A stretch of DNA of 54,336 bases, taken from positions 1 through 54,336 of IMG/VR virus record IMGVR_UViG_3300009684_000040. One strand, given 5' to 3'. Of the stretch, positions 11,859 to 54,336 are shown in pieces. The stretch comes from a virus. The first letter of the stretch is position 1. Each line of letters starts with the position of its first letter. The notes below the pieces were generated by a model that worked only from the letters and a program-made list of their open reading frames with translations, searched no databases and was not told the DNA's origin. The position numbers were made by a program, and so were the translations under genes.

Positions 11859-12224
11859 ATGCACAAAATTACGGATGAGAGTAAGGAAAAGGTAAGGAAG
11901 CTTGCTGCTGCAGGTGTTAGGTTTGAGGATATTGCCGCGAAGCTTGGCATATCTAGTGACACCCTTACGCGTAGATATAGGCAGGAGTTAGATGACGGTA
12001 GGATTGACGCTAACGCTGCTATTGGAGAGACTTTGTATCAGCAGGCTAAGAATGGTAATACTGCTGCGATGATCTTCTGGCTAAAGACTCAGGGTGGCTG
12101 GCGTGAGAAGAACCACGTTGAGGTTACCGGGGAGAATGGTGGCCCTGTTAAGGTAGACACCTCGATCTTTAATGCCATCATCACCAACCTTGAAGCGAAG
12201 CGCCAGATAGAGACAAATGAGTGA
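11859..12224 (+). CDS. terS: Terminase small subunit
   Basis: 121 residues with an N-terminal helix-turn-helix (RKLAAAGVRFEDIAAKLGI then SSDTLTRRY, residues 13-41) and a helical oligomerisation region, the usual TerS layout. TerS recognises the phage packaging site and loads the large subunit. GGAGG lies 9 bases before ATG and the gene overlaps terL by 8 bases. Confidence 0.85.
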   Translation: MHKITDESKEKVRKLAAAGVRFEDIAAKLGISSDTLTRRYRQELDDGRIDANAAIGETLYQQAKNGNTAAMIFWLKTQGGWREKNHVEVTGENGGPVKVDTSIFNAIITNLEAKRQIETNE

Positions 12225-13644
12225 TGCTGCCCTTATTGCGGCACTTAAGGATCCGGATTTAGCGAAGCAGTTCGCCGCCCTTCCTGAGGTTGATAGGGCT
12301 GCGTTTGAGTGGCGTGCTAAGTGGCTAACGCAGGCACACAAGCATCAGATAATGCCGCCCGGTGAATGGTGGAGTACCTGGTTACTCTGCGCGGGCCGGG
12401 GAGCGGGCAAGACGAGATTAGCCGCGGAGCAGATAGGGTGGCTTACATGGTCCAACCCAGGGACTCGAGCGTTAGTAGCCGCCCCAACCTCCTCTGACGT
12501 TCGCGGTACCTGCTTTGAGGGTGATAGCGGGCTGCTCAATGTAATACCGCCTGCGCTGATTGAGGACTACAACAAGAGCCTGCACGAGCTGCGCCTAAAG
12601 AATGGCAGCCTCATCAAGGGTATCCCAGCAAGCGAGCCGGAGCGCTTCCGAGGCCCTCAGTTCCATTTTGCCTGGGCCGATGAGTTAGCGGCTTGGGACT
12701 ACCTGCAAGAGGCGTGGGACCAGATCCAGTTCGGGTTGCGTCTGGGTAAGCGCACGATCATGATCTGCACCACCACGCCGAGGCCTAAGGATCTGATCAT
12801 CGACCTCATCGGCAGGGATGGTGAGGATGTGGTGGTTACGACCGCCTCCACCTACACCAACCTATCCAACCTGAGCCAGAACTTCCAGAAGCAGATCCTG
12901 CAATACGAGGGCACGAAGTTAGGAAGGCAGGAGATTTACGCCGAGATTATTGATCCCGAGGAGTCTGGGATTGTTAAGCGGGATATGTTTAAGCTGTGGC
13001 CTGTTGATAAGCCATTCCCGCGGTTTGAGTACATTATTCAGAGTTATGATTGCGCCTACACAGAGAAGACGCATAACGATCCGACTGCCTGCATTACCTT
13101 TGGCGTATTCAAGCCGCTCGATAGTCCGATGGCGGTAATGGTAATTGATTGCTGGCAAGACCGATTACAATACCCAGACCTGCGCCCTAAGGTAGTTGAG
13201 GAGTTCGAGAATGTTTACGGTGAAGGCAAGGATCGCAAACGTGTTGATCTCATCCTGGTTGAAGATAAGTCAGCCGGGATTAGCCTCATCCAAGACCTAC
13301 AAAGGGCCCATCTCCCCGTGCGTTCGTACAACCCCGGCGGAGCGGATAAGATGCAGCGCCTGAACATCGTATCCAACATCATCGCCCGCGGCAGGGTATG
13401 GATACCGGAGAGCAGCACCAGGCCGGGATTCGTGAGGGACTGGGCAGAGGGTATGGTTAGCCAGCTCTGCTCGTTCCCTGACACGACCCACGACGATTTC
13501 GTTGACTGTACATCGCAAGGGCTTAGGTTCCTGCGTGACTCTGGCTGGATTGATATTGATCCGCCACCTCGAGATCCTTACGACGACGACGACTACGCCG
13601 ATTCCAGCGCAGGCAAGAAGCGCGTTAACCCCTACGCGATTTAG
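12217..13644 (+). CDS. terL: Terminase large subunit
   Basis: 475 residues. ATPase domain: Walker A CAGRGAGKT (58-66), Walker B FAWADE (151-156, catalytic Glu156), coupling TTTPRP near 188. C-terminal RNase H-like nuclease: SYDCAYTEK, then VEDKSAG, then HDDFVDC carry the acidic residues that cut concatemers. The motor pumps DNA into the capsid. Follows terS as in most tailed phages. Confidence 0.95.
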   Translation: MSDAALIAALKDPDLAKQFAALPEVDRAAFEWRAKWLTQAHKHQIMPPGEWWSTWLLCAGRGAGKTRLAAEQIGWLTWSNPGTRALVAAPTSSDVRGTCFEGDSGLLNVIPPALIEDYNKSLHELRLKNGSLIKGIPASEPERFRGPQFHFAWADELAAWDYLQEAWDQIQFGLRLGKRTIMICTTTPRPKDLIIDLIGRDGEDVVVTTASTYTNLSNLSQNFQKQILQYEGTKLGRQEIYAEIIDPEESGIVKRDMFKLWPVDKPFPRFEYIIQSYDCAYTEKTHNDPTACITFGVFKPLDSPMAVMVIDCWQDRLQYPDLRPKVVEEFENVYGEGKDRKRVDLILVEDKSAGISLIQDLQRAHLPVRSYNPGGADKMQRLNIVSNIIARGRVWIPESSTRPGFVRDWAEGMVSQLCSFPDTTHDDFVDCTSQGLRFLRDSGWIDIDPPPRDPYDDDDYADSSAGKKRVNPYAI

Positions 13645-13651
13645 GTGACCT

Positions 13652-16339
13652 ATGAGCGATCGCAGCATGGACAGGTTTGGTTACGCGGACAGGACGATCG
13701 CCAACCTGATGAGACCGCCAGAGGAAAAGGCGGAGAAGAGGAACCTTACCACCGCGGAGAAGGCGCAGGCTTTCCTTGAGGAGCAGCTACGCCAGATCAC
13801 CACCCCAGAGCGGGCACGCAGGCTCTCTATGACGGCCTTTGGCGGCCCCCAGAGTGGTATCCCTGGAGGTATGGGCGCAGTCGACTTCGTGCCGTTCCTA
13901 GGCTCTGCTAAGGGGGTTGAGGAGGGTGCTCGCGACGTTAACCAGGCCGCCTATGATCTGGAGTCTGGCCGGTATGGTGACGCCCTCCGCAACTATGGCT
14001 CTGCGGTCCTTGGCGTGTTACCGGGTGCTGTAGGGGCCATGAAGGTTGCTCCCGGTCTTGCCAAGGCAATCAAGGCGGCCCCACAGGATGAGGCTCTGAG
14101 GCTTGCCCAGTTCCGTGCAGCGTTACCACCGTCGCAGGGTGGGTTAGGGCTTCCGGCAGATAACACGCCAATCGAACGCGCCCAAGCAATGGGGTTTGAT
14201 TACGCTAGAAGAAGTAGAAATCCAAGTGAACCATTTAATGATGTTAATTACGCAATGTTTGCGGAACACAATGGGGATCCAGACGAGGCATTGGATAGAT
14301 TGCGTACATTTGGCAAAGGCCAATGGTTAGGAAGAGCCGAAGTCCCGGTTAAAGACATTCAAAAAGACATTGTTCGTTTAATTAAAAGAAGAGGGCTTAA
14401 CGAACCATATCAAACAACGGCGGCTAACTTGGCAAGAGAAGCCAATCCAACTGACATTGTGAACTCTGGCGGGATGTGGGACGCCCCAGAGATTGCAGAG
14501 GCGGTTGTTGAACACGCTAGGGATAAGGGAGTTGGGGGCGTATTCCTAAATGACGGCGCAATTATATGGGATCCCGAGTTAATACGGTCTCGTGAGGCGG
14601 CCTTTGATCCTTGGCGTAGAGACGCGGCAACTGCAGCAGCGTTCGGCGTAGCGGCTCCTGATTTGATGGCAAAAGAAAAGACAGAAAAGAAGCCTAAGAA
14701 AGATAAGGCTAAAGAAAAGGCCGCGGAGCCCCATATGGCTGATGGCGGTCAGGCAAGGAGTGGCCCGTCGATTGACCAGAAGATGCTTGATGAGGAGCTG
14801 CAACAGGTTCGCAACCGAAAGAAGGGTGGTGATCGCAAGGACCTCTCTGGCCTTGATGTAGCCGTAGCCAATCGGTTTGGGTTTGATCCTGAAGTGGAGC
14901 GCTTGGGTTTGCTGCCCTATCCGCGTGGGGCCCTGACGAAGGGTAGCAAGGTTGACTGGTCAGATTGGGTCGCGCCTCAGTTCGTATATGACGCGGCCAA
15001 GGCGTTCTCCCTGCCTGGCTACGCGGCGCAGGGTGGAGAGTATTCACCCGAGGATGTGGCGAACATGGCCGCAACTATTTCCGGCGGCGGGATGGCGTTT
15101 GGGGAAATCCCCGCTGGCGCATTAGGGATGGCGGCCAGATCAGTTCCAGATAAGGCATTGCCGTTAATGTTGCCCAGGGCCAAACCAAAGACCAAGGCTC
15201 AGATTGAAGAGCTTGCTAGGCGGGTTTCTGATCAGCAGCTTGGCGTTCACGTTACCCCGCCCAACTCAACAACCAACCTAGCCGGACGATCCAAAAAAGA
15301 AAGCAAACGTCTTGAGGCTCTGCCATATACGCTTGATCGTGACCCGTCAATACCAGAGCCAAAAGTCATTGAACCAAAGCTTGGGGATGTTATCGTTGGA
15401 TTCCCAGGCGATCAAACCGTTTCCAATGCAATATTGAGATCGGTAGGAGACATCAAAAACATTGACTCAAACCAAGAAGGCGGGTCAAGGTTTGCTTTAG
15501 GGCATCTGCAACTGCCTGAGGAGGTTAGGCCATTTTGGTCTTCAGGGGCAATTCCGGCTACTAACGTACAAAATAAAGTTGGAAGGATAGCCACACTATT
15601 TGATCCGGAGAACATATGGGGCAGCCACCTAGCGATGGGGCCGACATCAAATGACTTTGCAATGCACTTTGCAGACGCAAACTTAAAGTCTATTGACCTT
15701 TCTAAAATGACCGTTGATCAGATCAATGAGTTTGACAAAATCATATCTGACGGGTTTATCAAGAAAAACAAAAAGACAGGTAAGGCAGAGGTTTTTGCTT
15801 TTCCCGAATGGCCTGGTATTGCAAACCCAGAGGCGGCATATGAGGCAATGCGTCAAAACCCAGAAATGCGAAAGTGGTTTAACAGCAGAGCCAAGGTTCC
15901 AAAAATAACTGATTTGCTTAATATGCCGAAGGGGCAGGATATTCAATGGGCCATCACAGAACCAGACCTGAGGAACATGGAAATCAATATCACAGGGCAC
16001 ACAATGGGCCGATTAAAGCCCGGAGCCCCGCTGACTTCAATGGGGCTTCATCAAACATACTCTCATGAAATTCCTTCGGGCGGCGAGGTTGGTAGGCAAA
16101 GATATCTGACTCCATTTGTCTTGTCTCATCCTGACTCGGCCCAGCACATAGCATCAACTCAGAGACCAGCAGACTTTACCGGCACCATTCAAAAGGTATT
16201 CCCTCATCAAGTCGTCGACCGACAGTTACAGGATGAACTGGGTCAATACTATGAAATGATGAAGCGATTCACTGGAAAGAAGCGCGGTGGTTTGGTCAAG
16301 AAAGAATCCGAAGGCGCTCTATCCCTAATTACTGAGTGA
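13652..16339 (+). CDS. Large polyvalent-type protein between terminase and portal
   Basis: 895 residues, mosaic. Residues 60-140 hold hydrophobic helices around AVLGVLPGAVGAM. Residues about 168-330 end in IIWDPELIRSREAAFDPW, the closing motif I associate with ADP-ribosyltransferase-like domains of phage polyvalent proteins, although the usual HGT start is missing, so activity may be lost. A Lys-rich linker (KKPKKDKAKEK) and MADGGQARSG follow, then a second half repeats the pattern of a hydrophobic segment and an unknown C-terminal domain ending KKRGGLVKK. Two segments (about 14160-14480 and 15250-16330) are AT-richer than the rest, suggesting acquired modules. Possibly packaged in the virion and injected. 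Function unknown. Confidence 0.72.
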   Translation: MSDRSMDRFGYADRTIANLMRPPEEKAEKRNLTTAEKAQAFLEEQLRQITTPERARRLSMTAFGGPQSGIPGGMGAVDFVPFLGSAKGVEEGARDVNQAAYDLESGRYGDALRNYGSAVLGVLPGAVGAMKVAPGLAKAIKAAPQDEALRLAQFRAALPPSQGGLGLPADNTPIERAQAMGFDYARRSRNPSEPFNDVNYAMFAEHNGDPDEALDRLRTFGKGQWLGRAEVPVKDIQKDIVRLIKRRGLNEPYQTTAANLAREANPTDIVNSGGMWDAPEIAEAVVEHARDKGVGGVFLNDGAIIWDPELIRSREAAFDPWRRDAATAAAFGVAAPDLMAKEKTEKKPKKDKAKEKAAEPHMADGGQARSGPSIDQKMLDEELQQVRNRKKGGDRKDLSGLDVAVANRFGFDPEVERLGLLPYPRGALTKGSKVDWSDWVAPQFVYDAAKAFSLPGYAAQGGEYSPEDVANMAATISGGGMAFGEIPAGALGMAARSVPDKALPLMLPRAKPKTKAQIEELARRVSDQQLGVHVTPPNSTTNLAGRSKKESKRLEALPYTLDRDPSIPEPKVIEPKLGDVIVGFPGDQTVSNAILRSVGDIKNIDSNQEGGSRFALGHLQLPEEVRPFWSSGAIPATNVQNKVGRIATLFDPENIWGSHLAMGPTSNDFAMHFADANLKSIDLSKMTVDQINEFDKIISDGFIKKNKKTGKAEVFAFPEWPGIANPEAAYEAMRQNPEMRKWFNSRAKVPKITDLLNMPKGQDIQWAITEPDLRNMEINITGHTMGRLKPGAPLTSMGLHQTYSHEIPSGGEVGRQRYLTPFVLSHPDSAQHIASTQRPADFTGTIQKVFPHQVVDRQLQDELGQYYEMMKRFTGKKRGGLVKKESEGALSLITE

Positions 16340-38896: not shown

Positions 38897-41110
38897 ATGA
38901 CTAAGAAGGTTTTTTCTCTAGATACTCAGGCGGGTGTACAACGCGACGGTACGCTGTTTGACAAGAACTTCTATAACGACGGGCGTTGGGTAAGGTTTCA
39001 GCGTGGCAGGCCTCGTAAGATCGGCGGCTACCGGATGCTCTCTGACCAGCTCACGGGTCCATCTCGAGGGATGTGGACTAACGCTGCGAATGGCGTCAAC
39101 CAGATTTTCTCGGGCTACAGCGGCGGCCTGCAGGAGCTCGTGATTGACAACAACGGCAACGGTCAGGGTATCCAGAACTTTACCCTCTCAAACTTTGAGG
39201 CGAACGCAAACAATCTTTGGCAGTTTGACGGGTTTTATGACGTCGGCGGTAACGGCGTTGGCTCAATCGTTGCTCATCCAGGTAAAAACCTTGCGGCGAT
39301 TGATAACTCGGTTAACACGCCGGTGCTTATTGGAGACATCAACGGCTCCACGATGTCTAAGGTTGGGGTGTTTACCAACTCGCTTACGGGGAACAACACG
39401 CTAATTGCCACAATTCCTGCGGCGAACCCGTTGATTGGCGTCGGTCAAACGGTAACTGGGACGGGAATCCCGGCTGATACAAAAGTTGTTGGCGTCAATA
39501 CCACGAATATCACCCTCAACAACGTCATTCCATCGGGGACCGTCACTGCCACCTTTGACAATAACGTGGATGTATCTGGTGGCGTCGTCTCCCTGCACCC
39601 TTACCTGTTTGTCTTTGGTAACAATGGATTCCTAAAGAACTGCTCTGCCGGCAACCCTGCGAATTGGGTGGGGCTGGACTCAAACGAGGTTAACGTCGCC
39701 ACCGGTAAGATTGTGGCTGGGTTAGCGGTTCGAGGCGGTAGCAACTCTCCTTCTGGTCTGTTCTGGAGTCTTGACAGCCTGATTCGGGTCTCATACATCG
39801 GCGGGACGGGGACTCCTGCTCAGTATTGGCGCTATGAAACGATCTCGGGGCAGACTTCGATTATGTCTAGCCAGTCCGTGATTGAGTACGACGGGATCTA
39901 TTTCTGGTGCGGCGTTGACCGGTTCATGCTCTACGGCGGGACGGTGAAGGAGATCCCTAACGACTTTAACCAGAACTATTTCTTTGACAACCTTAACTAC
40001 TCGCAGCGGCAGAAGGTTTGGGCCTGCAAGGTGCCGAGGTACGGAGAGATTTGGTGGTTCTATCCTCGCGGTACGTCAACCGAGTGCAACGACGCGATTA
40101 TCTATAACGTCCGAGCCGGGGTATGGTATGACGCTGGGCAGGCTTTAGGGGCAGGCAGGAGCGCCGGCTACTTCTCAATGGTCTTCCCCTACCCAATCAT
40201 GGCGCAGTCGACCACGATCCCTAGCACGCAGGTATTTACAAACACCTTCACGACGATAAGCGGTAGCGTCTGGCTAAATGCAGACTCCGCAAGTGCGCTG
40301 GCAGACCCGCTTCAGGTGATTACAGGGGATAATATTGCCGCCAATACGACGGTCGTTTCGGTTGTTTCTAGTAGCCTAAAGACGCTGGGGGCAATTACCG
40401 GAGGCTCTAGCTATACGCCAGGCACATACAATGCAACTGCATTATCTGGTGGCGGTGGCTTTGGTGCTACGGCAAATATAGTCGTGGGGGGCGGCGGCTC
40501 GGTTACCTCGGTGACGATCGTTAGCAGGGGCTCTGGGTATACCGTGGGGTCAACTATAACGGCAACCATACCTGGCGGGGCTGGATTCTCTGTGCCGGTT
40601 AGTGCTGTTTATGTTCAGAGCATCCAGATGTCAAACGCCGCAACTGGATCCGGCACCCAGACTCTGACGTTTAGCTCGCCACTGAACCGGATTCGCGTCT
40701 ATCAGCATGAGTATGGCGTTAATGACGTGACCGGCCAGAACGCGGCGGCGATTGAGTCTTACTTTGAGACAAACGACCTTGGATGGGTGTCAGGAGGCCC
40801 TGCAGCAGCCGCTCCACCTCCAGGTCAGGGCGGAGTAGCCGGAGACAACAAATGGCTGCGTCTAGAGCGTGTGGAGCCCGATTTTGTGCAGACCGGTAAC
40901 ATGAGCCTAGTCATTACGGGTAGGCCTTACGCGCAGTCTGATGATGCTACGTCAGCGCCGTATGTTTTTGGTCCTACGACTGGCAAGATTGACATGAAGG
41001 AGCAGAGGCGGGAGTTGAGGTTGCGTTTCATTAGTAACGTGGTGGACGGCAACTATCAACTCGGTAAAGTGTTGTTAAGTGGAGACTTTGGCGACGTTCG
41101 GGGGTACTGA
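38897..41110 (+). CDS. Large tail protein (tail tubular B-like / stabilisation)
   Basis: 737 residues from ATG 38897. VFSLDTQAGVQRDGTLFDKN, then GRWVRFQRGRPRKIGGYRML and GYSGGLQELVIDNNGNG: a conserved large tail protein of podovirus-like phages, probably the nozzle. Two inserts (about 175-235 and 450-590) contain VKVTGTGIPADTK-like and GGGGFGATANIVVGGGGSVT repeats, variable beta modules. Ends LGKVLLSGDFGDVRGY. Family by pattern memory; role by position. Confidence 0.72.
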   Translation: MTKKVFSLDTQAGVQRDGTLFDKNFYNDGRWVRFQRGRPRKIGGYRMLSDQLTGPSRGMWTNAANGVNQIFSGYSGGLQELVIDNNGNGQGIQNFTLSNFEANANNLWQFDGFYDVGGNGVGSIVAHPGKNLAAIDNSVNTPVLIGDINGSTMSKVGVFTNSLTGNNTLIATIPAANPLIGVGQTVTGTGIPADTKVVGVNTTNITLNNVIPSGTVTATFDNNVDVSGGVVSLHPYLFVFGNNGFLKNCSAGNPANWVGLDSNEVNVATGKIVAGLAVRGGSNSPSGLFWSLDSLIRVSYIGGTGTPAQYWRYETISGQTSIMSSQSVIEYDGIYFWCGVDRFMLYGGTVKEIPNDFNQNYFFDNLNYSQRQKVWACKVPRYGEIWWFYPRGTSTECNDAIIYNVRAGVWYDAGQALGAGRSAGYFSMVFPYPIMAQSTTIPSTQVFTNTFTTISGSVWLNADSASALADPLQVITGDNIAANTTVVSVVSSSLKTLGAITGGSSYTPGTYNATALSGGGGFGATANIVVGGGGSVTSVTIVSRGSGYTVGSTITATIPGGAGFSVPVSAVYVQSIQMSNAATGSGTQTLTFSSPLNRIRVYQHEYGVNDVTGQNAAAIESYFETNDLGWVSGGPAAAAPPPGQGGVAGDNKWLRLERVEPDFVQTGNMSLVITGRPYAQSDDATSAPYVFGPTTGKIDMKEQRRELRLRFISNVVDGNYQLGKVLLSGDFGDVRGY

Positions 41111-41349
41111 TGGCCGTTTTATATGACCCGCGCTATCATACTTTCGTGTCTTGGGCCGACCTAATGGTGGAGCAATTCGCCAGCAATCAGCTTGAGATAC
41201 CGAATGAGAAGACCGATTGGAAGGCGTGGGGTCAAGGCCTCAAGTCTATCGGGGTCTTTTCTAACGAAGCCGTTCCCGATCCTGATCAGTACGGAAACTG
41301 GTCGGATTGGGCCTCTGCACTTATCAATGCGATGAATGGAAATGTCTGA
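41110..41349 (+). CDS. Small tail-region protein
   Basis: 79 residues, overlapping the previous stop by one base. Tyr/Trp-rich (YDPRYHTFVSWADLMVEQFA, DWKAWGQGLKSIG, GNWSDWASALINAMNG), helical, common after large tail proteins in related phages. Function unknown. Confidence 0.75.
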   Translation: MAVLYDPRYHTFVSWADLMVEQFASNQLEIPNEKTDWKAWGQGLKSIGVFSNEAVPDPDQYGNWSDWASALINAMNGNV

Positions 41350-42286
41350 CACAATTTTTGTTGGTATCTCATCCTACCGTGACCCGCTCCTAGCCCACAC
41401 CATCAAAAGCGCCTTAGACAACGCCAAGTACCCTGAAAAGATCAGGTTCGGTGTTGTTGAGCAGGAGGTCCCAGAGCGGCGGATCGTTCCTGAATCATTT
41501 TGTGGCGCCAACATCACCCATATAGCGATTGACCCCAAGGTATCTCGAGGTGCCTGCTGGGCGAGGTCGTTGCAGATGTCCTTATTCGACGATGAGGACT
41601 GGGTCTTCCAGGTTGACTCCCACACCGTCTTTGATCACGGATGGGACGAGTATTTTGTGGAGATGAGCAAGATACTGATGATGACCAACCCGAAGGTCGT
41701 TATCTCGGGCTACCCAAGGGGCTTCATATTTAAGAATGGCAGGTCTGAGAAGGTGCCTGATGACGGGAAGGTCATCGTCCATACCTGCACAGAGGACACG
41801 AACTTTGATCATGGGCCGGTGCTCAACATCCCACCAAAAGGAATTGACTCCGAGGTCCCGGTAAAGGGCTTTTATATTGGCGCCCAGACCATGTTTGCTC
41901 CGGGGCGGTTTATCTATGAGGTCCCTTATGACCCCTACCTTTACTTTAACGGTGAGGAGCACTCCCTTGCGGTGCGGGCGTTTACGTTTGGGTGGGACAT
42001 TTACCACTGCCCAGGTATGCCGGTCTATCACCTTTACGAAACGAGCGACACGGACAGCTACCGCAAAAAGCACTGGGAAGATAAAGAGAACGAAGATCGT
42101 AAGGTAAAATGGGGGAATATGGACGTTAGATCCAAGACTCGCCTTGCCGAGATGCTCTTGTATGGCAAGGACGTTGGCAGGATCGGCCTTGGTAATGTTA
42201 GGACGCTGCAGGAGTTTGCAGAGTTCTCTGGTATTGACTACCCCAATAAGTTCATCCACGAAAAGGCTCGAAAGGGAATTTGGTGA
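41336..42286 (+). CDS. GT60-like GlcNAc glycosyltransferase
   Basis: 316 residues. Opening FVGISSYRDPLLAHTIKSAL then KIRFGVVEQ, and QVDSH at 92-96 (metal/UDP-binding DxD-like site), KGFYIGAQTMFAPG, YLYFNGEEHSLAVRAFTFGWDI: the fold of GlcNAc transferases (family GT60) that transfer N-acetylglucosamine to hydroxyproline or Ser/Thr. ATG 41336 or 41342 is the start; neither has a clear RBS. It stands 3 bases before the giant Ser-rich protein gene, so glycosylation of that protein is a natural guess. An alternative acceptor is another virion protein or the host surface. Confidence 0.85.
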   Translation: MEMSDTIFVGISSYRDPLLAHTIKSALDNAKYPEKIRFGVVEQEVPERRIVPESFCGANITHIAIDPKVSRGACWARSLQMSLFDDEDWVFQVDSHTVFDHGWDEYFVEMSKILMMTNPKVVISGYPRGFIFKNGRSEKVPDDGKVIVHTCTEDTNFDHGPVLNIPPKGIDSEVPVKGFYIGAQTMFAPGRFIYEVPYDPYLYFNGEEHSLAVRAFTFGWDIYHCPGMPVYHLYETSDTDSYRKKHWEDKENEDRKVKWGNMDVRSKTRLAEMLLYGKDVGRIGLGNVRTLQEFAEFSGIDYPNKFIHEKARKGIW

Positions 42287-42289
42287 CCT

Positions 42290-45200
42290 ATGGCTACTGA
42301 CCTCACCGTATTAAAGGGGGAACTTTATCTATTAAACAAAGCGTCTAATAATGGTTACGATAATCGCGCTATGGGGCCGGAGTCCCATATCAATAATATA
42401 GCCAACATCCTATATAACCAATATGGCGTAAAGTCTCTAAAGGATATTGAGCCTTACTGGGTTCCCGCAACGCCCAGAATTGACGGCAGATATGAGATGC
42501 GGCGGACCGGCGACTATCATCATTCATATTCAAGGATGCCGAACGGTTATATGTATGATGTTCAGGTTCCGACCATGACATCTGTTTATATCCCACCGGT
42601 CCCCGCCGTCCCAGCACATTGGTCAACAACGGAAGCGGTAAACAAGGCAAACGGCAAAGTAATCCCAATAGGGCAGATTGGCTCTAGCGGGGAGGGGAAG
42701 GGCTACACAAACTATAAGTTAATTCCGGTTAAACAGGCAAACGGATCAACTGTTTTTGCTCCAGGGCAAGAATGGCATGACTCAAATTCCTTTAACCAGA
42801 TAGCCCCATACCTGTTTTTGGGTTTGGCGCTTACCGGGGTTGGCGGGGTACTTGGTGCCGCAGTTGGATTAGAGGGGGCGGCAGCTAGTGCATTTGGAAC
42901 CGCTGCAATCACAACGGCAATATCGGCTGCTGCAGGAAAAATCGGGGACGTCGGCGATGTTATTGAGTCCTTCGCCAAGGGATTTGCTGGCAACTATTTA
43001 GGAGACATTGTCGGCAAGGAGTTGGGCTCTGTAATTGATGACAGTATTGGAAAGGGCGCGGCGGCTGATGTAATTAAGAATGTTGCCGTTGGCGGGACAA
43101 GAAACGCGATTCAGGCTGCGGTTGACGGGAAAAACTTAAAACAAATTCAAGACGCATTTGAGAAGGGGGGAGCGTCCGCAGCAATTCCTTCAATCCTTGG
43201 TCAGGTTCCCGGATACAAGGATTTGTCTACCGGGGCGCAGGGAATTATTTCAACTGCCCTTACGGGAAAATTGAATGGCAAGGTGCCCACTGCCGGCTTA
43301 ATTCAATCTGCAATAACTGCTACCGGGATCGTTGCCGACACCGCCAAGTCTCTGAATCTTAATCCGGCTCAAGAGAGGCTGATTGTCTCTGGGCTAACAA
43401 ACACCGCGATGGCGTTGGCTACCAATAAGCCAATTGACGAGGCGCTAGCAAAAACTCTAGTACAGGCAGGGCAAACGGCGTTTAATGATCTGGGGAAGAC
43501 TTACGCCAAACAAATCACCGCGGGATTGACTGATAGCGTCAAGGACAAGATAAAGACGCCCCAAGATCTGGCTGTCTTAGTGCAACAGTCCTCCGAAAAC
43601 GTAGACCAGCTTCTTGAAACAATAAGCGCCGCGGACAAACGTCAAAGCGCAATTGAGAGCCGCCTTGCTGCCATCAAATCAGATATTGATCCTCAGATTC
43701 AATCCTATCAAAAGGCAGAGGCAGAAAGAAACAGGCAGCTAACAAACTACTACGACATGATTGGCAGCGGCTACTCCGTTGGCGCAATCAATGACCAGAT
43801 TGACAAGCTAAACGCCGCCACGGAAGAATTTAACACTGAGTCCAATGCGCTGCAAAACAAATGGTCAAAATATGAGGGCGAAACAAAAAGTCTTAATGAC
43901 GAACTAGGGAAGCTAAAGGTTTCTATTCCGAGAGACATTCAATCGTTCAATGACTTTAAGCAAAACCTGCAGGCTGCTGGGAAGACGCTGGACTCCTTTA
44001 ACGAAGACCTTAAGAAAGGCACCGAGGCTTCGTTTGTTAGCAAGGTTGCGCCTGATTTTGATGCAAACGCATACGCCAAGCTTCACAAGATCAACCCGTC
44101 TGAGGCCTACAGCAACTGGATAGGGACTGGGATGACGGCCCCTATCAATGAGGCTGAAGTCAAGACTATGGCGGCCGCCGCTCCCAAGAGTGTTATTGAG
44201 GGGCTAGCGGATGCTGGGGACGTCAAGGAGGGCTTGGTTGACTCCCACCTGGCGTATGCAATTGCTGCGAGCGCGAAGGACCAGCAGGAGAAGGCTCAGG
44301 AGGCTATCCAGGCCAATATGCAGGGCTACGCCAAGGCCGCTTACGAGGCAGCGCAGACCGGTAGCAAGACCTTCAAGTTTATTGGCGATGACGGTGTCCA
44401 GTACACGCTCAACACGCCCAAAGAGCTTCTTCCGCACTCGTACCAGGATGCCCTGCAGACCGCCATTAACAACGGTGACAAGACGTTCAAGTACACCGGC
44501 GAGGATGGCAAAGAGTACACGGTTCCGATCGCAAACAACCTGCTGCCCAAAACTTATCAAGACGCGATGCAGGCGGCGAAGCAGCGCGGTGACAAGACCT
44601 TTCAGTACCTGGGCGAGGACGGCAAGCAGTATACGGTTGCTGTCCCACAGGCCGTGCAGCAGACGTCAATTGTTTCAAAGACGCCGGCCGCGGTTCCAAC
44701 CGTATATGGCTCTTGGAACAAGCCCACCTTAGATCAGTATGAGATCCCTGCTGGCGTCAAGCTCGCCACACCGCAGCAGGTTTACAACGATCGTACAGCG
44801 ACCCTAATGAAGCTCCCAGATGGCAACTACGCCTGGGTGCAGGTGCAGAGCGATCGGGTTCGAGATCAGAAATATGGCACGACGGATCCGGACTGGTTAA
44901 AGGCCAACGACCCGCTCGCTTACGTCGCAACGCTTAAAAACATTCCAACTGATCAGTTGCCGGCGTCCTTGCAGAAGAGTCAGCCTGGCTACGTTAAGGC
45001 TGCAGAGGCTTTGATTGGGAGGGTAAAAGAATTTGCGCCTGACGTTGCTATGGATGCTACGGCCATGCTTCTGAATGGCGCGGGCGACGCAGCAAATATT
45101 TTTGGGGCCGTTGCATCTCTCTTTACTGGCACCAAAACAGAGAACACGGCGCTTGGTAAACTCGCCAAGAACCTAACAAACCTTAGCGATAAGGCAATGA

Positions 45201-48200
45201 GCGACGATCTTCGGTCTGCTATTGCTGATAACGTGCAGAGGTGGAACGACTCAAAAGGGCTCGGCGGTAGCGTTAGTGCGATTGCTCAAAGTATCTGGGA
45301 AAACCCCGTAGCCACTCTGGGGTTCCAGGCTGGGTCTGAGGTGGTCAGTGAACTGCTTACGGGAGGGTTTGCAGGAGTTGGGGCGAAGTTAGCTGGAAAG
45401 GCGGCTAAAGGTGCTTACGTTGCCGATGAGCTGGCGGCAAAGATTGCATCCAAAACCGGCATTGTGATGGCCGAGTTTCCGGAGATCGTTTCAGGGGTTA
45501 AAGGCGCGTTTGAGGACACCTATAAGGACGTATACGACACCGCAATCAAAAACGGTAAGACGGATGCTCAGGCCGCTCAAATGGCTGCTGAGGCCGCGTA
45601 TAAGGTCGCCGGCGCAAGCTTGGTAACGGGGCTGGTTGTCAACGGGAAAAACCCAAATGAACTGTCTAACCTCATGTTTGGAGCCAAACCATCGGCTTCC
45701 AAGCAGAACTTTTTAGACGCAACAACGGGCCTCTCTAAGGCATATGTTAATCAAGTAAAAAAGACGGGCGCGGAAGAGGCTAAAGACGAATTCATTGAGC
45801 AGTTGGTGCCAAGCTCCGTTAGGGATCTTTACAAAGGCGCAAACTTTGGGCTTTCAGAAATTGACCCCGGCAAGAGTCTAACCGAGGCGGCGTATGCAGG
45901 GATTATTGGGGGACTGACAGGCGGAACGATTGCTGCCGGCGTTATTCCTGCACGAAGCATTGATGATGTAAACAGGAATATTACAACGCTGACCTCGCCC
46001 GCAATGTTGACGGCGATTGATAAGGCGCAGCAGATCAAGCCTGGTACGCCCTCATACACCTACGACAATCTTAAGGCTGCAGAGAATCAGATTATTACTG
46101 CTGCCCATGAAATAGGCGTACAAGATCCAGAGCAGATTTCTAAGATAATTTTAAGCGTCCAGCCTGACGCAAATATAAACGAAGTCAACAAATTGATTGA
46201 GGCAGACGCCAGAGCCTCAATTGAAAAGTCAATAAAGGAGTCTGCACCAACGCTTAGTCCGTCTGCTCTTAAATCTGCCGTTGACGACAACTACAACAGA
46301 TTGTCTACGTCTATATTTGAGAGCAAAGATACGTCTATCGCAACCGCATCAATGGACCCAAGTGCGGCGTCCAGTTACATCACATCAAGACAGTCTGCGT
46401 CAACTTCTTTTTCGTTATATGCAAGCCAGCAGGAGTCATTAAAGCCTGGCGCGTCAAAGTCTTTGATGTCATCGTCCTTGTCCGCGTCATCGCTGTCTGC
46501 CTACAAATCATCTTCGGCAAGCGTATCTAAATCCGTAGCGGACAAATCAGAGTCCACTCAGAAAAGCCTTTCCCTTTCCTCGCAGTCGGCGCAATCGGAA
46601 TCTGTAAGTAAGTCGCAAAGTACATCCATCTCATCTGATGCGTCAAAATCATCTTCAATTGAAGCTTCAAAATCGTCTTCGATCTCTAGCGTGGCTGCGT
46701 CCTCTAGCAGGTCACAGAGCGCATCTATTTTGGCTGAACAATCAAGGTCGAAATCTATTCAGGCCTCAGAGTCAACCAGCGCGTCTTCGTCAAAATCTAT
46801 ATCGGAAGTAAAGGCCGCTTCTATCTCTAAGTCCACTTCCTTATCTCAATCTACTTCAAGTTCAAAATCGTTATCCACATCTCTTTCCATCTCAACCTCC
46901 TCTAGCAACGCGGCAATTAGCGCGTCAAAAGCCGGGTCTGAGGCTGTTTCAAAATCCAAATCGGTTTCAATTGTATCTAACTCTGTTTCAGTTTCTAAGT
47001 CGATTTCAACGTCAACTTCAATATCTTTGTCGCAGTCAAAGTCTGTTTCAACGGATCAGTCTTTGTCGCGGTCAAACTCTACATCGGCCTCCAATTCGGC
47101 GTCGCGGTCTATTAGCACTTCGTCTTACAAGGCCTCGGTGGACGCATCTAAGGCTGAGTCTAGTCGGCAATCTATTTCTGCCTCGGCGTCTCGGTCTGCT
47201 AGCGTTTTGGCGTCCCAATCGCTCTCCACGTCAAAATCTATATCTACCTCCGAGTCTCAGTCGGCCTCTAAATCTATACTTTTGTCTCAGGCCCAGTCAT
47301 CACGAGATGAGTCGGCGTCAAAGAGCACTTCAAAATCACTCTCAGAATCCACCTCTAGAGTGTCTTCATCTAAAGCCTCTGTAGACGCCTCAACATCAAA
47401 GTCAATTTCAGATTCCGTTTCCAAATCTGCTAGCACCTCTGCTTCCAAGTCGGCTAGCGATTACGCATCAAAAATATCTGCAGACTCTTCGACATCAAAA
47501 TCTATTTCATTGTCAGCGTCCACGGCTGCAAGCACATCCCTGTCCAAATCTAATCTTGAAGCCTCAACATCAAAGTCAATTTCAGAATCCACCTCTAGAG
47601 TGTCTTCATCTAAAGCCTCTGTAGATGCCTCAACATCAAAGTCAATTTCAGAATCCACCTCTAGAGTGTCTTCATCTAAAGCCTCTGTAGATGCCTCAAC
47701 ATCAAAGTCAATTTCAGAATCTTCTGCCAAGAGTTCTAGCGCCTCTAAAACTTCATCACCGGCAAGCTCAACGCCTCAGTCCTCAAGCGCCTCATTGCCA
47801 AGCACTACCACAGATGCTTCGGCGTCTGAATCAGCTTCTAAATCAATTAGCCTATCCGCGTCTAAAGAGGCTTCAAAATCTCAATCTGCCGCAGCACTTG
47901 CGGAAACTTCTGCTTCAAAGTCGGCAAGCATATCTGCGGTTAAAGCCTCAAAAGACGCTTCAATTTCAAAATCAACGTCCGAATCAGTATCTAAATTAAC
48001 CTCAAAATCAATTAGCGCGTCCTCGGTTGCGGCTTCAAATTCCGCATCAAAGTCGCAATCAGTATCGAATTCCATATCAAAGTCGTCTAGCATTTCTGCT
48101 TACAAATCGCAAGCGGCAACGACCGTCTCTACAACGGGAAGCGTAAACCCTTGCCAATCAAAGTCAATATCTTATTCCGCCTATCAGTCGCTCCAAGAGT

Positions 48201-50308
48201 CGGCAGCCAAAATATCCAAAGACGCATCTATCTCAATCTCAACCTCAAAGTCCCTTTCAAACTCAATATATGAGTCAAATCGGGTTGCCAGCGTACAGAA
48301 TTCCAAGAGCGCGTCTGTATCAAAATCATCTTCATTGTCAGCTTCGAGGTCCATATCAACGTCTTCTATTGAAAACTCAACAAGCGTCTCTCGAAGCGAA
48401 TCTATCTCAAAATCTATTTCATACTCAACATCAACATCTACAAACGCTTCTGCCGCCAAAGCATCAAGAGACGCCTCGACCTCTCAATCCAAATCAATTT
48501 CGGCATCTAATTCTTCGCAGACCTCCCAGAGTCAGTCCGTTTCAAAACCTGTTAGCCAATCAAATGCCAATCAGTCAAACAAGGTTTCGCCAACAACGTC
48601 AACCTCTGGTAAATCGCTAACCGTCAACGCCTCAAAAAGCGAGTCAATTTCAAGGTCTCAGTCAGCATCGCTGTTAATGTCAACCTCGGTTTCTGTTAGC
48701 GTTTCCAAAGTAAAGAACTCAAAAAGCGAGTCCATTTCAAGGTATCAGTCAGCATCGCTGTTAATGTCAACCTCGGTTTCTGTTAGCGTTTCAGGGGTAA
48801 AGAACTCAAAAAGCATATCTGCCTCCAAATACGCTTCAGAGTCAACGTCAACTTCTATCTCAAAATCAACCAGCGTTTCAAGCGTAAAGGCCTCGAAGGC
48901 TTCGTCTGCCTCTCAAACAAAATCTTCGTCTAGTTCAAAGCCGGTCTCGTCTAGCGCATCGTCCTCTGCGGCGTCGTCATCCAAGTCTTTGCAATCATCT
49001 TCTGTAAAGCCAGTAAACTCAGAGTCCATTTCAAAGTCAGTTTCTGCGTCAATCTCGGTCTCCAACTCAAAATCAATTTCGCAGTCTAAGTCCATATCGG
49101 CTTCTAATTCCAAGTCAATTTCTTCTTCTATATCAAAATCAACGTCTATTTCCATATCAACATCCAAGTCGGTTAGTAAAAAACCCAAGGTTACAAGCAG
49201 CGGTTCTGGATCTGTTGCTCCGACATCGTCACAAACGAGTAGCGCGTCTCAGACTACGGGAACTAGCACCGGGACCTCAGTAGACAGCTCTTCAAGTGTT
49301 AGCAAATCTATTAGCGAAAGCGTATCTCAGAGCCTTAGCACTAGCATTGAAAATTCTCTTAGCACGTCAACCAGCGAATCAATCAGTACGTCAACCAGCG
49401 AATCAATCAGTACATCAATCAGCGAATCAATCAGTACGTCAATCAGCACGTCAATCAGCAACTCAATCAACACATCAGTTGACACTTCAACCAGCACCGA
49501 TGTTCAGCCGCCGCCCACTTCTTCTGTTGTCACTACGTCTGCAAGCGAAACGACGTCGGCTCCCGTAACGACTTCCCCTGCTATCACCTCTTCTGCGGTG
49601 CAGTCCTCGACCGAGACAACCTCGTCGCCACCCGTCACATCTTCGCCCGCCGTAACATCTTCGCCCGCCGTAACGTCATCGCCTGCTGTAACTTCGCCAA
49701 AGGTCACGGTACCTCTATCAAGTAGTCGACCGGCAAGCAGTGGATTTCAATTCAGCACCCCTTCAATTGCGCCAGTTACGGATTCCACGTTCTCAGATTA
49801 TGTTAGGCCTATAATTGGCGGCGCACCGGCATACAAGGGAATTTTGGATCAGTTTTTCAAGAAAGTTGAAACGGACAACCAACCGGAGGCTTCCATGCCC
49901 AAGCAAGCTTATTATGAGTATGGAGAGTCAACTCCGATTTCTGACATTATTGGCAGCAACGAAGAGGTCGCTCCAGAAGAGGAGCCTGCTTTTGCTGCTG
50001 GCGGATTAACGTCTCCCCTAAAAACCTTCTATAAGTCGGGTAAAATACGCCAGGACTTCCGCAAGGGCGATGCCGTCTCAGGGCCTGGTGATGGGCAATC
50101 TGACGACATTCCCGCGATGCTAGCGGATGGCGAGTTTGTTATTCCCGCTGACGTCGTGGCTGCCTTGGGTAACGGCTCAACTAAGGCTGGGAGCGATCAG
50201 TTGTACAAGATGATGCACGAAATTCGTAACCGTGCCAGGTCTGCCCACCCGAAGAGCCTTCCACCTAAAGCTCTGTCGCCACTTGATTACCTGAAGCGGA
50301 GAAAATAA
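42290..50308 (+). CDS. Giant serine-rich virion protein (2,672 aa)
   Basis: N-terminal 1-180: unknown. 180-280: Ala/Gly-rich hydrophobic helices (LGLALTGVGGVLGAAVGL) as in ejection or tape-measure proteins. 430-560: coiled coil. 691-790: three 38-residue tandem repeats around GDKTFKY.GEDGKEYTV. 890-1340: more hydrophobic helical segments (AYAGIIGGLTGGTIAAGVI). 1359-2404: serine-rich tract, about half Ser by eye (patterns SKSISESTS, SASTSKS). 2405-2484: Thr/Pro/Ser mucin-like stalk (PVTSSPAVTSSPAVTS). 2485-2672: globular end with AAGGLTSPLK and GPGDGQSDDIPAMLADGEFVI, a motif found at C termini of tape-measure-type proteins. It fills the tape-measure/ejection slot between GT60 and internal proteins. 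Frame is intact throughout. Confidence 0.75.
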   Translation: MATDLTVLKGELYLLNKASNNGYDNRAMGPESHINNIANILYNQYGVKSLKDIEPYWVPATPRIDGRYEMRRTGDYHHSYSRMPNGYMYDVQVPTMTSVYIPPVPAVPAHWSTTEAVNKANGKVIPIGQIGSSGEGKGYTNYKLIPVKQANGSTVFAPGQEWHDSNSFNQIAPYLFLGLALTGVGGVLGAAVGLEGAAASAFGTAAITTAISAAAGKIGDVGDVIESFAKGFAGNYLGDIVGKELGSVIDDSIGKGAAADVIKNVAVGGTRNAIQAAVDGKNLKQIQDAFEKGGASAAIPSILGQVPGYKDLSTGAQGIISTALTGKLNGKVPTAGLIQSAITATGIVADTAKSLNLNPAQERLIVSGLTNTAMALATNKPIDEALAKTLVQAGQTAFNDLGKTYAKQITAGLTDSVKDKIKTPQDLAVLVQQSSENVDQLLETISAADKRQSAIESRLAAIKSDIDPQIQSYQKAEAERNRQLTNYYDMIGSGYSVGAINDQIDKLNAATEEFNTESNALQNKWSKYEGETKSLNDELGKLKVSIPRDIQSFNDFKQNLQAAGKTLDSFNEDLKKGTEASFVSKVAPDFDANAYAKLHKINPSEAYSNWIGTGMTAPINEAEVKTMAAAAPKSVIEGLADAGDVKEGLVDSHLAYAIAASAKDQQEKAQEAIQANMQGYAKAAYEAAQTGSKTFKFIGDDGVQYTLNTPKELLPHSYQDALQTAINNGDKTFKYTGEDGKEYTVPIANNLLPKTYQDAMQAAKQRGDKTFQYLGEDGKQYTVAVPQAVQQTSIVSKTPAAVPTVYGSWNKPTLDQYEIPAGVKLATPQQVYNDRTATLMKLPDGNYAWVQVQSDRVRDQKYGTTDPDWLKANDPLAYVATLKNIPTDQLPASLQKSQPGYVKAAEALIGRVKEFAPDVAMDATAMLLNGAGDAANIFGAVASLFTGTKTENTALGKLAKNLTNLSDKAMSDDLRSAIADNVQRWNDSKGLGGSVSAIAQSIWENPVATLGFQAGSEVVSELLTGGFAGVGAKLAGKAAKGAYVADELAAKIASKTGIVMAEFPEIVSGVKGAFEDTYKDVYDTAIKNGKTDAQAAQMAAEAAYKVAGASLVTGLVVNGKNPNELSNLMFGAKPSASKQNFLDATTGLSKAYVNQVKKTGAEEAKDEFIEQLVPSSVRDLYKGANFGLSEIDPGKSLTEAAYAGIIGGLTGGTIAAGVIPARSIDDVNRNITTLTSPAMLTAIDKAQQIKPGTPSYTYDNLKAAENQIITAAHEIGVQDPEQISKIILSVQPDANINEVNKLIEADARASIEKSIKESAPTLSPSALKSAVDDNYNRLSTSIFESKDTSIATASMDPSAASSYITSRQSASTSFSLYASQQESLKPGASKSLMSSSLSASSLSAYKSSSASVSKSVADKSESTQKSLSLSSQSAQSESVSKSQSTSISSDASKSSSIEASKSSSISSVAASSSRSQSASILAEQSRSKSIQASESTSASSSKSISEVKAASISKSTSLSQSTSSSKSLSTSLSISTSSSNAAISASKAGSEAVSKSKSVSIVSNSVSVSKSISTSTSISLSQSKSVSTDQSLSRSNSTSASNSASRSISTSSYKASVDASKAESSRQSISASASRSASVLASQSLSTSKSISTSESQSASKSILLSQAQSSRDESASKSTSKSLSESTSRVSSSKASVDASTSKSISDSVSKSASTSASKSASDYASKISADSSTSKSISLSASTAASTSLSKSNLEASTSKSISESTSRVSSSKASVDASTSKSISESTSRVSSSKASVDASTSKSISESSAKSSSASKTSSPASSTPQSSSASLPSTTTDASASESASKSISLSASKEASKSQSAAALAETSASKSASISAVKASKDASISKSTSESVSKLTSKSISASSVAASNSASKSQSVSNSISKSSSISAYKSQAATTVSTTGSVNPCQSKSISYSAYQSLQESAAKISKDASISISTSKSLSNSIYESNRVASVQNSKSASVSKSSSLSASRSISTSSIENSTSVSRSESISKSISYSTSTSTNASAAKASRDASTSQSKSISASNSSQTSQSQSVSKPVSQSNANQSNKVSPTTSTSGKSLTVNASKSESISRSQSASLLMSTSVSVSVSKVKNSKSESISRYQSASLLMSTSVSVSVSGVKNSKSISASKYASESTSTSISKSTSVSSVKASKASSASQTKSSSSSKPVSSSASSSAASSSKSLQSSSVKPVNSESISKSVSASISVSNSKSISQSKSISASNSKSISSSISKSTSISISTSKSVSKKPKVTSSGSGSVAPTSSQTSSASQTTGTSTGTSVDSSSSVSKSISESVSQSLSTSIENSLSTSTSESISTSTSESISTSISESISTSISTSISNSINTSVDTSTSTDVQPPPTSSVVTTSASETTSAPVTTSPAITSSAVQSSTETTSSPPVTSSPAVTSSPAVTSSPAVTSPKVTVPLSSSRPASSGFQFSTPSIAPVTDSTFSDYVRPIIGGAPAYKGILDQFFKKVETDNQPEASMPKQAYYEYGESTPISDIIGSNEEVAPEEEPAFAAGGLTSPLKTFYKSGKIRQDFRKGDAVSGPGDGQSDDIPAMLADGEFVIPADVVAALGNGSTKAGSDQLYKMMHEIRNRARSAHPKSLPPKALSPLDYLKRRK
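44360..44660 (+). repeat. Three 114-bp tandem repeats in the giant protein
   Basis: Units begin at 44360, 44474 and 44588 (38 codons each, the last one shortened). The consensus product is GDKTFKYTGEDGKEYTV followed by a Leu/Pro/Tyr-rich helix QDALQ; aligned residues match mostly at conserved positions with synonymous drift, so this is an old duplication. Confidence 0.85.
46364..49501 (+). repeat. Serine-rich low-complexity tract
   Basis: Codons 1359-2404 of the giant protein: Ser at about every second position with Lys, Ala, Ile, Thr and Val between. Both TCN and AGY serine codons are used. Contains recent duplications: a 66-bp unit as tandem copies at 47585-47650 and 47651-47716, plus a distal copy at 47345-47410; an 87-bp unit at 48635-48721 and 48722-48808; and 24-bp units near 49365-49480 (TSTSESIS). 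Confidence 0.9.
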
Positions 50309-51324
50309 TGGGATTTCTGCAGGGCAACGCGCTCCCAAATGTCACGGAGACCCAAACCACCACCGACAAGCTGCCGGATTGGTATACCAATGTAGCGACC
50401 GGGCTGTCGTCTGTTGGTCAGGATTATCTCAAGAAAACTCCTGATCAATTAACAGCCGCCTATGACCCGATGCAAACGCTGGGTTATGGTCAGATTGAAG
50501 GTGCCGCAGGGGCCTATAAACCGGGCCTGGCAAGCGCAACTCAGACGGCCAATGCTGCCGCAGCCGGGATTACTCCTGAGCGCCTACAGCAGCTTATGAA
50601 CCCCTACACGCAGAACGTCGTGCAGGAGCTGGCGCGTCAGAGCGGATTGAGTCTACAAAGAAACATCCTCCCGCAGATCACCGGTCAGTTTGTTGGCTCG
50701 GGTGCATTGGGCTCCTCGCGTTATGCAGGCGCGCTTGGGCAGGCGATGACGGATACCGCGGCAAACTTGTCTGGTCAGCAGGGCAAGCTGCTAGAGAGCG
50801 GCTATAGCGACGCCATGAAGAGTCTGCTCCAAGAACAGCAGAATCAGGTTGCCGCAGGTAAGTTGCAGGGCGATCTGGCGGCGCAAGAGCAGGCGTTGGG
50901 ATTGACTGGTGCTAAGGCCTTGACCACCGCCGGGGCAGAGCGTCAGAAGTATGAGCAGCAGAAGCTCGAGGCGCCACTCACCGCGGCATCTAACGTCGCA
51001 GGGCTCTTGAGAGGATATACGCTGCCGAATGACAAGACTCAGACGACTGTTAAGCCGGGACAGCAGGGTCAGTTTGGTTTGAGTGACTTTGAGAAGATTG
51101 GCACCATCACATCCGTTCTTGGTGGCACTGACAAAGGCAAGTTCCTTGAGGGGCTTAAAAACGCCGGCAACAATGTTAAAGGGTATATTACTAACTTTAT
51201 TGGCAGCAATCCTCAATATAACTGGACAAATCTTTCGGGCTGGGGAAGTTATGGCACCGGGTCTGACAATCCAGAGGCAGAATTAGACACGGTTGTTTCT
51301 CCACAGGCCCTTGGTGACCGTTAA
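50308..51324 (+). CDS. Internal/ejection virion protein
   Basis: 338 residues. LPDWYTNVATGLSSVGQDY, then YDPMQTLGYGQIEGAAGAY, PYTQNVVQELARQSG and QITGQFVGSGALGSSRYAG: a helical protein I associate with ejection or DNA-injection proteins of podovirus-like phages. ATG overlaps the previous stop. Probably in the capsid core, ejected ahead of DNA. Confidence 0.72.
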   Translation: MGFLQGNALPNVTETQTTTDKLPDWYTNVATGLSSVGQDYLKKTPDQLTAAYDPMQTLGYGQIEGAAGAYKPGLASATQTANAAAAGITPERLQQLMNPYTQNVVQELARQSGLSLQRNILPQITGQFVGSGALGSSRYAGALGQAMTDTAANLSGQQGKLLESGYSDAMKSLLQEQQNQVAAGKLQGDLAAQEQALGLTGAKALTTAGAERQKYEQQKLEAPLTAASNVAGLLRGYTLPNDKTQTTVKPGQQGQFGLSDFEKIGTITSVLGGTDKGKFLEGLKNAGNNVKGYITNFIGSNPQYNWTNLSGWGSYGTGSDNPEAELDTVVSPQALGDR

Positions 51325-53253: not shown

Positions 53254-54336
53254 ATGGCTTTCTTCATCCAAGACCTCGACGACAACCAGAAAAAGATCGC
53301 CGCCCTTGTGTCTGCTAAGGCCGAGGAACTGGGCGTTGACAAGGATCTGGCGCTTTCTATGGCGTTTGCAGAGAGTGAGCTGCGCCACTTCAATCCGAAT
53401 GGCAAGACCGTCATGAGCCCCAAGAAAGCTGTCGGGGTCATGCAAGTTATGCCTGCAACCTCGAAGCAGTACGGATTCAACCCAAAGGATTTGCACGATC
53501 CTGAGAAGAACATCACCGCCGGGGTAACCGTCCTAAAGGATATGCTTGACAAGAGCGAAAATGACCCTATGATCGCCGCCGCCAAGTACAACTGGGGACC
53601 TAATCACGACTTCTTCAAGACCGGCGAGGGGGACATCCCGCAGGAGACCAAGGACTACCTCAAGCGCATCAAGTCCTACGGTGGCTTTGGCGGAGAGGCT
53701 CCCAGTTCAGAACAAACCCCTGCGGAACAAGCCCCACCACCAGAGGAGCCGATAGAAGTCCCCCCTGCGGCGGAGATTCCGGTCGCGCAGCCAACTGCAG
53801 AAACCCCAAAAAGTCCAGAAGAGATCCAGAAAGAGGAGGCGGAGGGGCGTAAGGATGACGTCTTAACCGCAGCAGCACTCGGCGGAACCGCGGGTCTTGG
53901 CGCTGGTTATGTACGCAAGCAGGCCACTGCAGTTGAGGATCGCATTCTGAGAGAGGAAAGGGCGAGGGCGGCCGCAGCAAGGAAGATAGCCGCGATGGAG
54001 GCTAGGGGTGCCCCTCCCAAGGCGCCTGGCAACCTTCCCGCTCCAACCCCCCCTGCGCCAGAGAAGCCTGCGCCGCTTAAGGGTGCCCAGAAATGGGTTC
54101 AGAGCCTTGGCAACGAGGTTCCCTATAAGGTTGCAGCTCAAGCCGAGACGATGGATAAGGTTAGTCCTCGAGGCGGCCAGACACTGATCAATCAGGATGC
54201 TGCTGCGATGGAGAAGATCCGGCAGATGGGAGAGGGCCGGCAGCGTCTGATTGGCGAGGGCATGGGGCAGATGATGGTCCCGCCGGAGGTCGCTGAGGAG
54301 AGGGCTAGGGCCGCCGCTGCCGCCGAGGCTAATACT
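53254..54336 (+). CDS. Lytic transglycosylase internal virion protein (3' cut by window)
   Basis: 361 codons, open to the window end. Residues 15-120 are an SLT-type lytic transglycosylase: AFAESELRHFNPNGK with catalytic Glu40, GVMQVMPATSKQYGF, AAAKYNWGP. These enzymes cut peptidoglycan during DNA entry, as the N-terminal domain of T7 gp16 does. Residues 150-200 are Pro/Glu-rich linker, a short hydrophobic helix (LTAAALGGTAGLGAGYV) follows, and the rest is Ala/Arg-rich. Its C terminus lies outside the window. Confidence 0.87.
   Translation, partial: MAFFIQDLDDNQKKIAALVSAKAEELGVDKDLALSMAFAESELRHFNPNGKTVMSPKKAVGVMQVMPATSKQYGFNPKDLHDPEKNITAGVTVLKDMLDKSENDPMIAAAKYNWGPNHDFFKTGEGDIPQETKDYLKRIKSYGGFGGEAPSSEQTPAEQAPPPEEPIEVPPAAEIPVAQPTAETPKSPEEIQKEEAEGRKDDVLTAAALGGTAGLGAGYVRKQATAVEDRILREERARAAAARKIAAMEARGAPPKAPGNLPAPTPPAPEKPAPLKGAQKWVQSLGNEVPYKVAAQAETMDKVSPRGGQTLINQDAAAMEKIRQMGEGRQRLIGEGMGQMMVPPEVAEERARAAAAAEANT

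Follow-up and report, generated by a model that had tools for sequence, protein, structure and literature searches.

A single open reading frame in a phage contig encodes a giant protein, about a thousand residues of which follow a Ser-x-Ser-x pattern, and parts of this tract are repeated almost letter for letter in the DNA. How did the tract arise, and does its serine serve a purpose? We examined the repeats, the genes around them and their counterparts in other phages. The window is the whole stretch of DNA analysed, 54,336 nucleotides long, and its features are collected in Table 1.

Table 1. Features of the giant gene and its surroundings, with positions in the window
Feature	Position	Strand	Remarks
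SU10-type adaptor	starts 37040		first in the gene order around the giant gene
408-aa protein	starts 37669		after the SU10-type adaptor
phrog_3287-like virion protein	starts 38849		before the 79-aa gene
79-aa 'YDPRYHTF' protein	41110..41349	+	end overlaps start of glycosyltransferase gene by 14 bp
Glycosyltransferase, 316 aa, Pfam PF11397 (GlcNAc; GT60 type)	41336..42286	+	D94-S95-H96 motif
Giant 2672-aa protein, carrier of the tract	42290..50308	+	single open frame
N-terminal part, ~1358 aa	42290..46363	+	two hydrophobic, Gly/Ala-rich segments (residues 170-212 and 1200-1224); exchanged among relatives
Ser-x-Ser-x tract, ~1045 aa	46364..49501	+	43% Ser; 68% of Ser with Ser at +2; 35 exact matches to a pattern of nine TCN-NNN units, 0 expected
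Distant, slightly diverged copy of 66-bp unit	~47330..47416	+	differs from each tandem copy at 2 of 72 bp
Tandem array of 66-bp unit	47561..47721	+	2.4 copies, 100%; repeat search
87-bp tandem duplication	48631-48717 and 48718-48804	+	93% identity, 6 differences
Array of 24-bp unit	49364..49458	+	4 copies, 91%; repeat search
Ser/Thr-Pro-rich mucin-like segment	49502..49741	+	30% S, 20% T, 16% P
18-bp array inside Ser/Thr-Pro-rich segment	49632-49692	+	repeat search
Conserved C-terminal domain of giant protein	49739..50308	+	motif GPGDGQSDDIPAMLADGEFV.PADVV..LGNGSTKAG
DNA-ejection-like protein	50308..51324	+	phrog_4287, E 4e-7; start overlaps giant stop by 1 bp
Unknown gene	starts 51333		between DNA-ejection-like and transglycosylase genes
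Lytic transglycosylase virion protein	53254..54336	+	Pfam SLT, E 7e-17; runs off the window

Turnover of the serine tract by duplication and exchange

The first-pass annotation had described a 66-bp unit present twice in a row and once at a distance, an 87-bp unit present twice, and 24-bp units, and all of these were located in the tract. The longest exact repeat was 95 bp, at an offset of 66. Codons of the tract were permuted among synonymous positions, which leaves the protein unchanged. In 300 such shuffles the longest repeat averaged 15.9 bp and never exceeded 25 bp, and when codon order was shuffled the maximum was 19. Repeated 24-mer positions numbered 218 in the tract versus 0.01 in the synonymous-codon shuffles. 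Since their length lies far beyond that in the synonymous-codon shuffles, the repeats are recent DNA duplications, as had been proposed, rather than a product of amino-acid constraint. The same annotation held that the frame is never broken, so that length changes are selected in codon multiples. The frame is indeed kept (10 of 10 high-scoring self-matches in the tract were in frame), but any essential reading frame would show this, and it is not in itself evidence of tuning; what is left of the selection claim is ordinary frame conservation.

Length variation, which had also been predicted, was checked in relatives and found in two pairs that differ by low-complexity indels. The close relatives L008 and L010 are separated by seven indels, all within the tract and none in the remaining ~1,560 residues; over the first 1340 residues, most 100-residue blocks are 95-100% identical, and one stretch is 79-85% identical. 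Between L033 and L035 the only differences are gaps of 24, 14 and 24 residues, which fall in Gly-Ser/Gly-Thr low-complexity linkers; outside them identity is 100%. The giant protein measures 1928-2672 aa in complete relatives that carry the glycosyltransferase. The tract of the window cannot be aligned to that of L004. When window positions 42290-46181, in the giant gene's N-terminal part, were compared with L004, dS was 1.5 versus 0.20-0.27 in flanking genes, which marks this part as a sharply bounded recombination module. Because the N-terminal part and the tract were exchanged as a module, slippage alone does not account for the difference between the two tracts. The N-terminal parts of the glycosyltransferase-positive phages fall into several mutually non-alignable types, while the enzyme and a low-complexity tract are kept. 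The tract thus grows, shrinks and turns over rapidly by in-frame tandem duplication, and it is exchanged between phages as a module.

Gene order and the upstream glycosyltransferase

The C-terminal domain of the giant protein gave short PHROG tape-measure matches over ~45 residues, its motif matched tape-measure-annotated phage genes by tblastn, and the phrog_4287 and SLT genes lie downstream. These observations suggest that the giant protein is part of the ejection/tail module, and both its position and its C-terminal motif fit a tape-measure or ejection protein. The likeness to phage tape-measure and internal ejection proteins lies in this motif and in the gene order with an ejection protein and a transglycosylase; unlike tape-measure proteins, however, the giant protein has neighbours that suggest a short-tailed phage. 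By portal, the nearest named phages were an unclassified phage from Manatee Spring and RW-group Caulobacter phages. A relative of the C-terminal domain is encoded by 262 viral contigs, and no tblastn match to the N-terminal part was found among 50,697 phage records. The AlphaFold model of the C-terminal domain was too poor to interpret (pLDDT 59, pTM 0.19).

Relatives keep the 79-aa gene upstream of the giant gene, and the slot between the two is a cargo site that is empty in some of them. The cargo is a beta-ketoacyl synthase with a carrier-protein-like gene in L085 (9361-11245), a ketoacyl synthase with a small protein in L178 (MW202545.1; 8894-10280) and a PF10118 metal-dependent hydrolase in L054 (3388-4083). 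Elsewhere in the window, an FkbM-type methyltransferase (2712-3482, minus strand; PF05050, E 6e-13) may have a sugar as its substrate, and a queuine tRNA-ribosyltransferase-like gene (9875-10618; phrog_1279, E 4e-61) suggests deazaguanine modification of DNA or tRNA.

In the window this slot holds the glycosyltransferase gene, which ends 3 bp 5' of the giant gene within one tightly packed gene run. The enzyme matched PF11397 with an E value of 3.3e-52 (178.5 bits against a curated cut-off of 21) and a PHROG glycosyltransferase at 2e-45. D94-S95-H96, a DxD/DxH metal-binding motif, was invariant in 14 homologues, and a dN/dS of 0.04-0.11 indicates strong purifying selection. The best structural matches of its AlphaFold model, which at pLDDT 45 is too poor for conclusions, were mostly GT-A enzymes. 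A PDB sequence search gave no useful match, and a scan of genome contigs (genome_contigs) gave no relative. The GT60 family comprises polypeptide alpha-GlcNAc transferases that start mucin-type O-glycosylation, as established through work on Dictyostelium and T. cruzi (PMC8724618).

A sequence-degenerate scan found homologues of the enzyme in 13 further close contigs and in one at 34% identity. In the close contigs the giant gene lies directly 3' of the enzyme gene wherever the contig extends, except in L085/L086, where three genes (carrier-protein-like, ketoacyl synthase and unknown) intervene. Among the 80 records that contain the C-terminal domain, 6 carry the enzyme and 74 lack it, and of these 74, L009 is truncated at the end in question; since the enzyme-positive phages form one clade, its absence from the 73 others is phylogenetically confounded. 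We rejected a rule that the enzyme follows Ser/Thr-rich linkers. At least 100 Ser/Thr were present in the linkers of 21 of 62 enzyme-negative relatives, many of them Gly-Ser or Gly-Thr, and two enzyme-positive relatives, both truncated, have Ser-poor tracts that are Lys/Ala-rich (L174) or Lys-Ala-Ser (L176). Among known phages the enzyme matched only three large ones, at 28-30%. XacN1 was rejected as a parallel case, for the large protein whose gene lies near its glycosyltransferase is not rich in Ser. In large phages, distant relatives of this enzyme are encoded near a carbamoyltransferase, annotated in L170 (XacN1; 12001-15718) and recognised by eye in L177 (10001-15966).

Ser-x-Ser tails and glycosyltransferases in unrelated phages

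Because the association with the GT60-type enzyme is limited to one clade and by the linkers described above, independent cases were sought by homology-free scans of viral contigs for Ser-x-Ser coding. Many matches of the first scan were dropped as antisense or poly-Ser. At least 14 records with convincing sense-strand Ser-x-Ser or Ser-Pro tails were picked by eye among the matches listed. The tailed proteins include capsid-adjacent and tail proteins with folded N-terminal parts of their own. Long tails of this kind occur on many unrelated viral proteins in metagenomes (L239, L339, L367, L415, L323, L320, L342, L387, L321, L305, L398, L312, L196 and L185). They often lie near clusters of GT2 enzymes and methyltransferase-like genes, and in L185 also near a sugar aminotransferase.

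Among the matches listed, a GT2 enzyme (PF00535) was present in 9 of 14 tailed records versus 2 of 45 controls (Fisher p 7e-6; counting homologous cases only once gives 1e-3). The controls came from the first Ser-x-Ser scan, and in both positive ones the GT2 gene was more than 5 kb from the match. Five of the 14 tailed records among these matches lacked GT2, and several of the five are short fragments. In L185, L196, L302 and L303 the GT2 gene is next or next but one after the tailed protein, which has 290-507 aa. All homologues found of one tail-linked GT2 adjoin a tailed protein in this size range. A GT2 glycosyltransferase gene broken by stops or a frameshift lies 8 bp after the Ser-x-Ser protein of L342 (6489-7167, reverse strand). 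PF11397 was not found in any of the 14 tailed records, so that different enzyme families adjoin similar tails in unrelated phages.

Ser-x-Ser tails with glycosyltransferases recur in other phages. A wider reading is that many environmental phages independently pair a virion protein whose Ser-x-Ser tail is hypervariable with a glycosyltransferase of its own. Such pairs, drawing on enzymes from different families (mucin-initiating GT60 type here, GT2 elsewhere), would give ejection, tail and capsid-adjacent proteins glycosylated stalks resembling those of serine-rich repeat adhesins or mucins. We put this forward tentatively, as plausible but short of probable. A literature search returned no described Ser-x-Ser virion protein with its own glycosyltransferase, which does not prove absence elsewhere.

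A proposed glycosylated stalk and its alternatives

With moderate confidence, we consider that the tract is best explained as a slippage-grown, O-glycosylated serine stalk modified by the adjacent enzyme. The tract would form a long, probably extended, Ser-rich stalk within a giant protein of the ejection/tail module. Selection would keep its composition, with Ser at about every second residue, and not its sequence, as suggested by the near-uniform Ser content despite turnover. In the infected cell, ahead of assembly, Ser/Thr residues of the tract, of the neighbouring Ser/Thr-Pro segment or of both would receive a sugar from the phage glycosyltransferase, probably GlcNAc with UDP-GlcNAc as the donor. 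The product would be a bottlebrush-like stalk, stiff, soluble and protease-resistant, with adsorption, shielding and ejection as candidate roles, and its length would be free to drift if glycan density matters more than exact length. This reading is supported by repeats beyond those of shuffled sequences, tract-confined indels, a PF11397 enzyme encoded 3 bp upstream, purifying selection on that enzyme and its retention despite N-terminal swaps, and the independent recurrence of Ser-x-Ser tails with GT2. It is weakened by the Ser-poor tracts of two enzyme-positive relatives, the Ser/Thr-rich linkers of enzyme-negative ones and the tailed records that lack GT2. It is not obvious that a chain bearing glycans could be threaded through a short tail, and the glycosyltransferase could be aimed at another target.

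Alternatively, the tract may be an unglycosylated entropic spacer, a disordered and length-tolerant linker between the N- and C-terminal domains for which any hydrophilic low-complexity sequence serves, with the enzyme modifying something else. Relatives do fill the same slot in the protein with varied low-complexity sequence, namely (GS)n, (GT)n, TGTTG, KASVEKAS and KAAKEAADAK, and the gene slot upstream elsewhere holds a ketoacyl synthase, a PF10118 hydrolase or nothing. We nevertheless regard such a spacer as unlikely, because Ser-x-Ser coding with a glycosyltransferase recurs in unrelated phages and, in the GT60 clade, the enzyme is retained beside the giant gene through changes of its N-terminal part. 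The first-pass annotation had offered a tunable spacer or a decoy surface. The decoy found no support; the tunable spacer is possible but incomplete, since it leaves out two features that speak for a glycan acceptor, the neighbouring glycosyltransferase gene and a Ser content that is nearly uniform along the whole tract.

Neutral drift, in which slippage expands TCN-rich repeats, selection removes only frameshifts and serine is a by-product of repeated codons, would agree with the recent duplications and the many in-frame indels. The composition of the tract makes it improbable. The 450 Ser residues stay at ~40-47% in successive bins across nearly 1000 residues, and Gly, Pro and aromatics are almost missing. 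All six Ser codons are used, among them AGY, which cannot be reached from TCN in one step. Drift also leaves the association of Ser-x-Ser tails with glycosyltransferases unexplained. Misassembly of repeat copies from metagenomic reads is very improbable: the records are metagenome assemblies, but the frame is open throughout, the copies carry distinct substitutions, other contigs bear different repeats of their own, protein lengths are identical across independent samples (L005/L006, L018/L019, L022/L023 and L029/L030), and the longest exact repeat is only 95 bp, with the usual short reads being longer.

The O-glycosylated stalk proposed here has counterparts in known systems. Staphylococcal Ser-Asp repeat proteins are modified by the dedicated glycosyltransferases SdgA/SdgB (PMC3794999); they share dipeptide Ser repeats and dedicated enzymes with the phage pair, but they are bacterial surface proteins with Ser-Asp repeats and other enzymes. 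Mycobacteriophage glycans are placed at the C-termini of capsid and tail-tube subunits by Freeman 2023, as cited in PMC12619734. There too phage structural proteins are the glycan carriers, whereas here a carrier role is suggested by genomic linkage, and the candidate carrier is a Ser tract of ~1000 aa within a giant protein of the ejection module. The GT60 mucin systems of Dictyostelium and Trypanosoma cruzi resemble the present one in enzyme family by profile, the DxH motif and a Ser/Thr/Pro-rich candidate acceptor; here, in contrast, the enzyme is phage-encoded and cytosolic in bacteria, the acceptor is adjacent in the genome and the activity is predicted.

Serine-rich repeat adhesins of bacteria (GspB, Fap1 and PsrP, with accessory Sec loci) have variable-length Ser-x tracts with few aromatics and a dedicated adjacent glycosyltransferase. 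The phage protein shares their long alternating tract. It differs in having no LPxTG anchor (an LPxT[GNA] motif was not found in the giant protein) and in an adjacent enzyme that is PF11397, not GtfA/GtfB; GtfA/GtfB, SecA2/SecY2 and Asp genes had no match among the window ORFs scanned.

The repeats alone are a correct but ordinary finding, and the genomic context raises their interest. If the tract is glycosylated as proposed, phages would share a trick of bacterial serine-rich repeat adhesins and parasite mucins, namely a cheap, repeat-grown Ser scaffold with a dedicated enzyme. The free length variation of these tracts would be explained, and a Ser-x-Ser tail beside a glycosyltransferase gene would be a simple genomic signature of glycosylated phage proteins.
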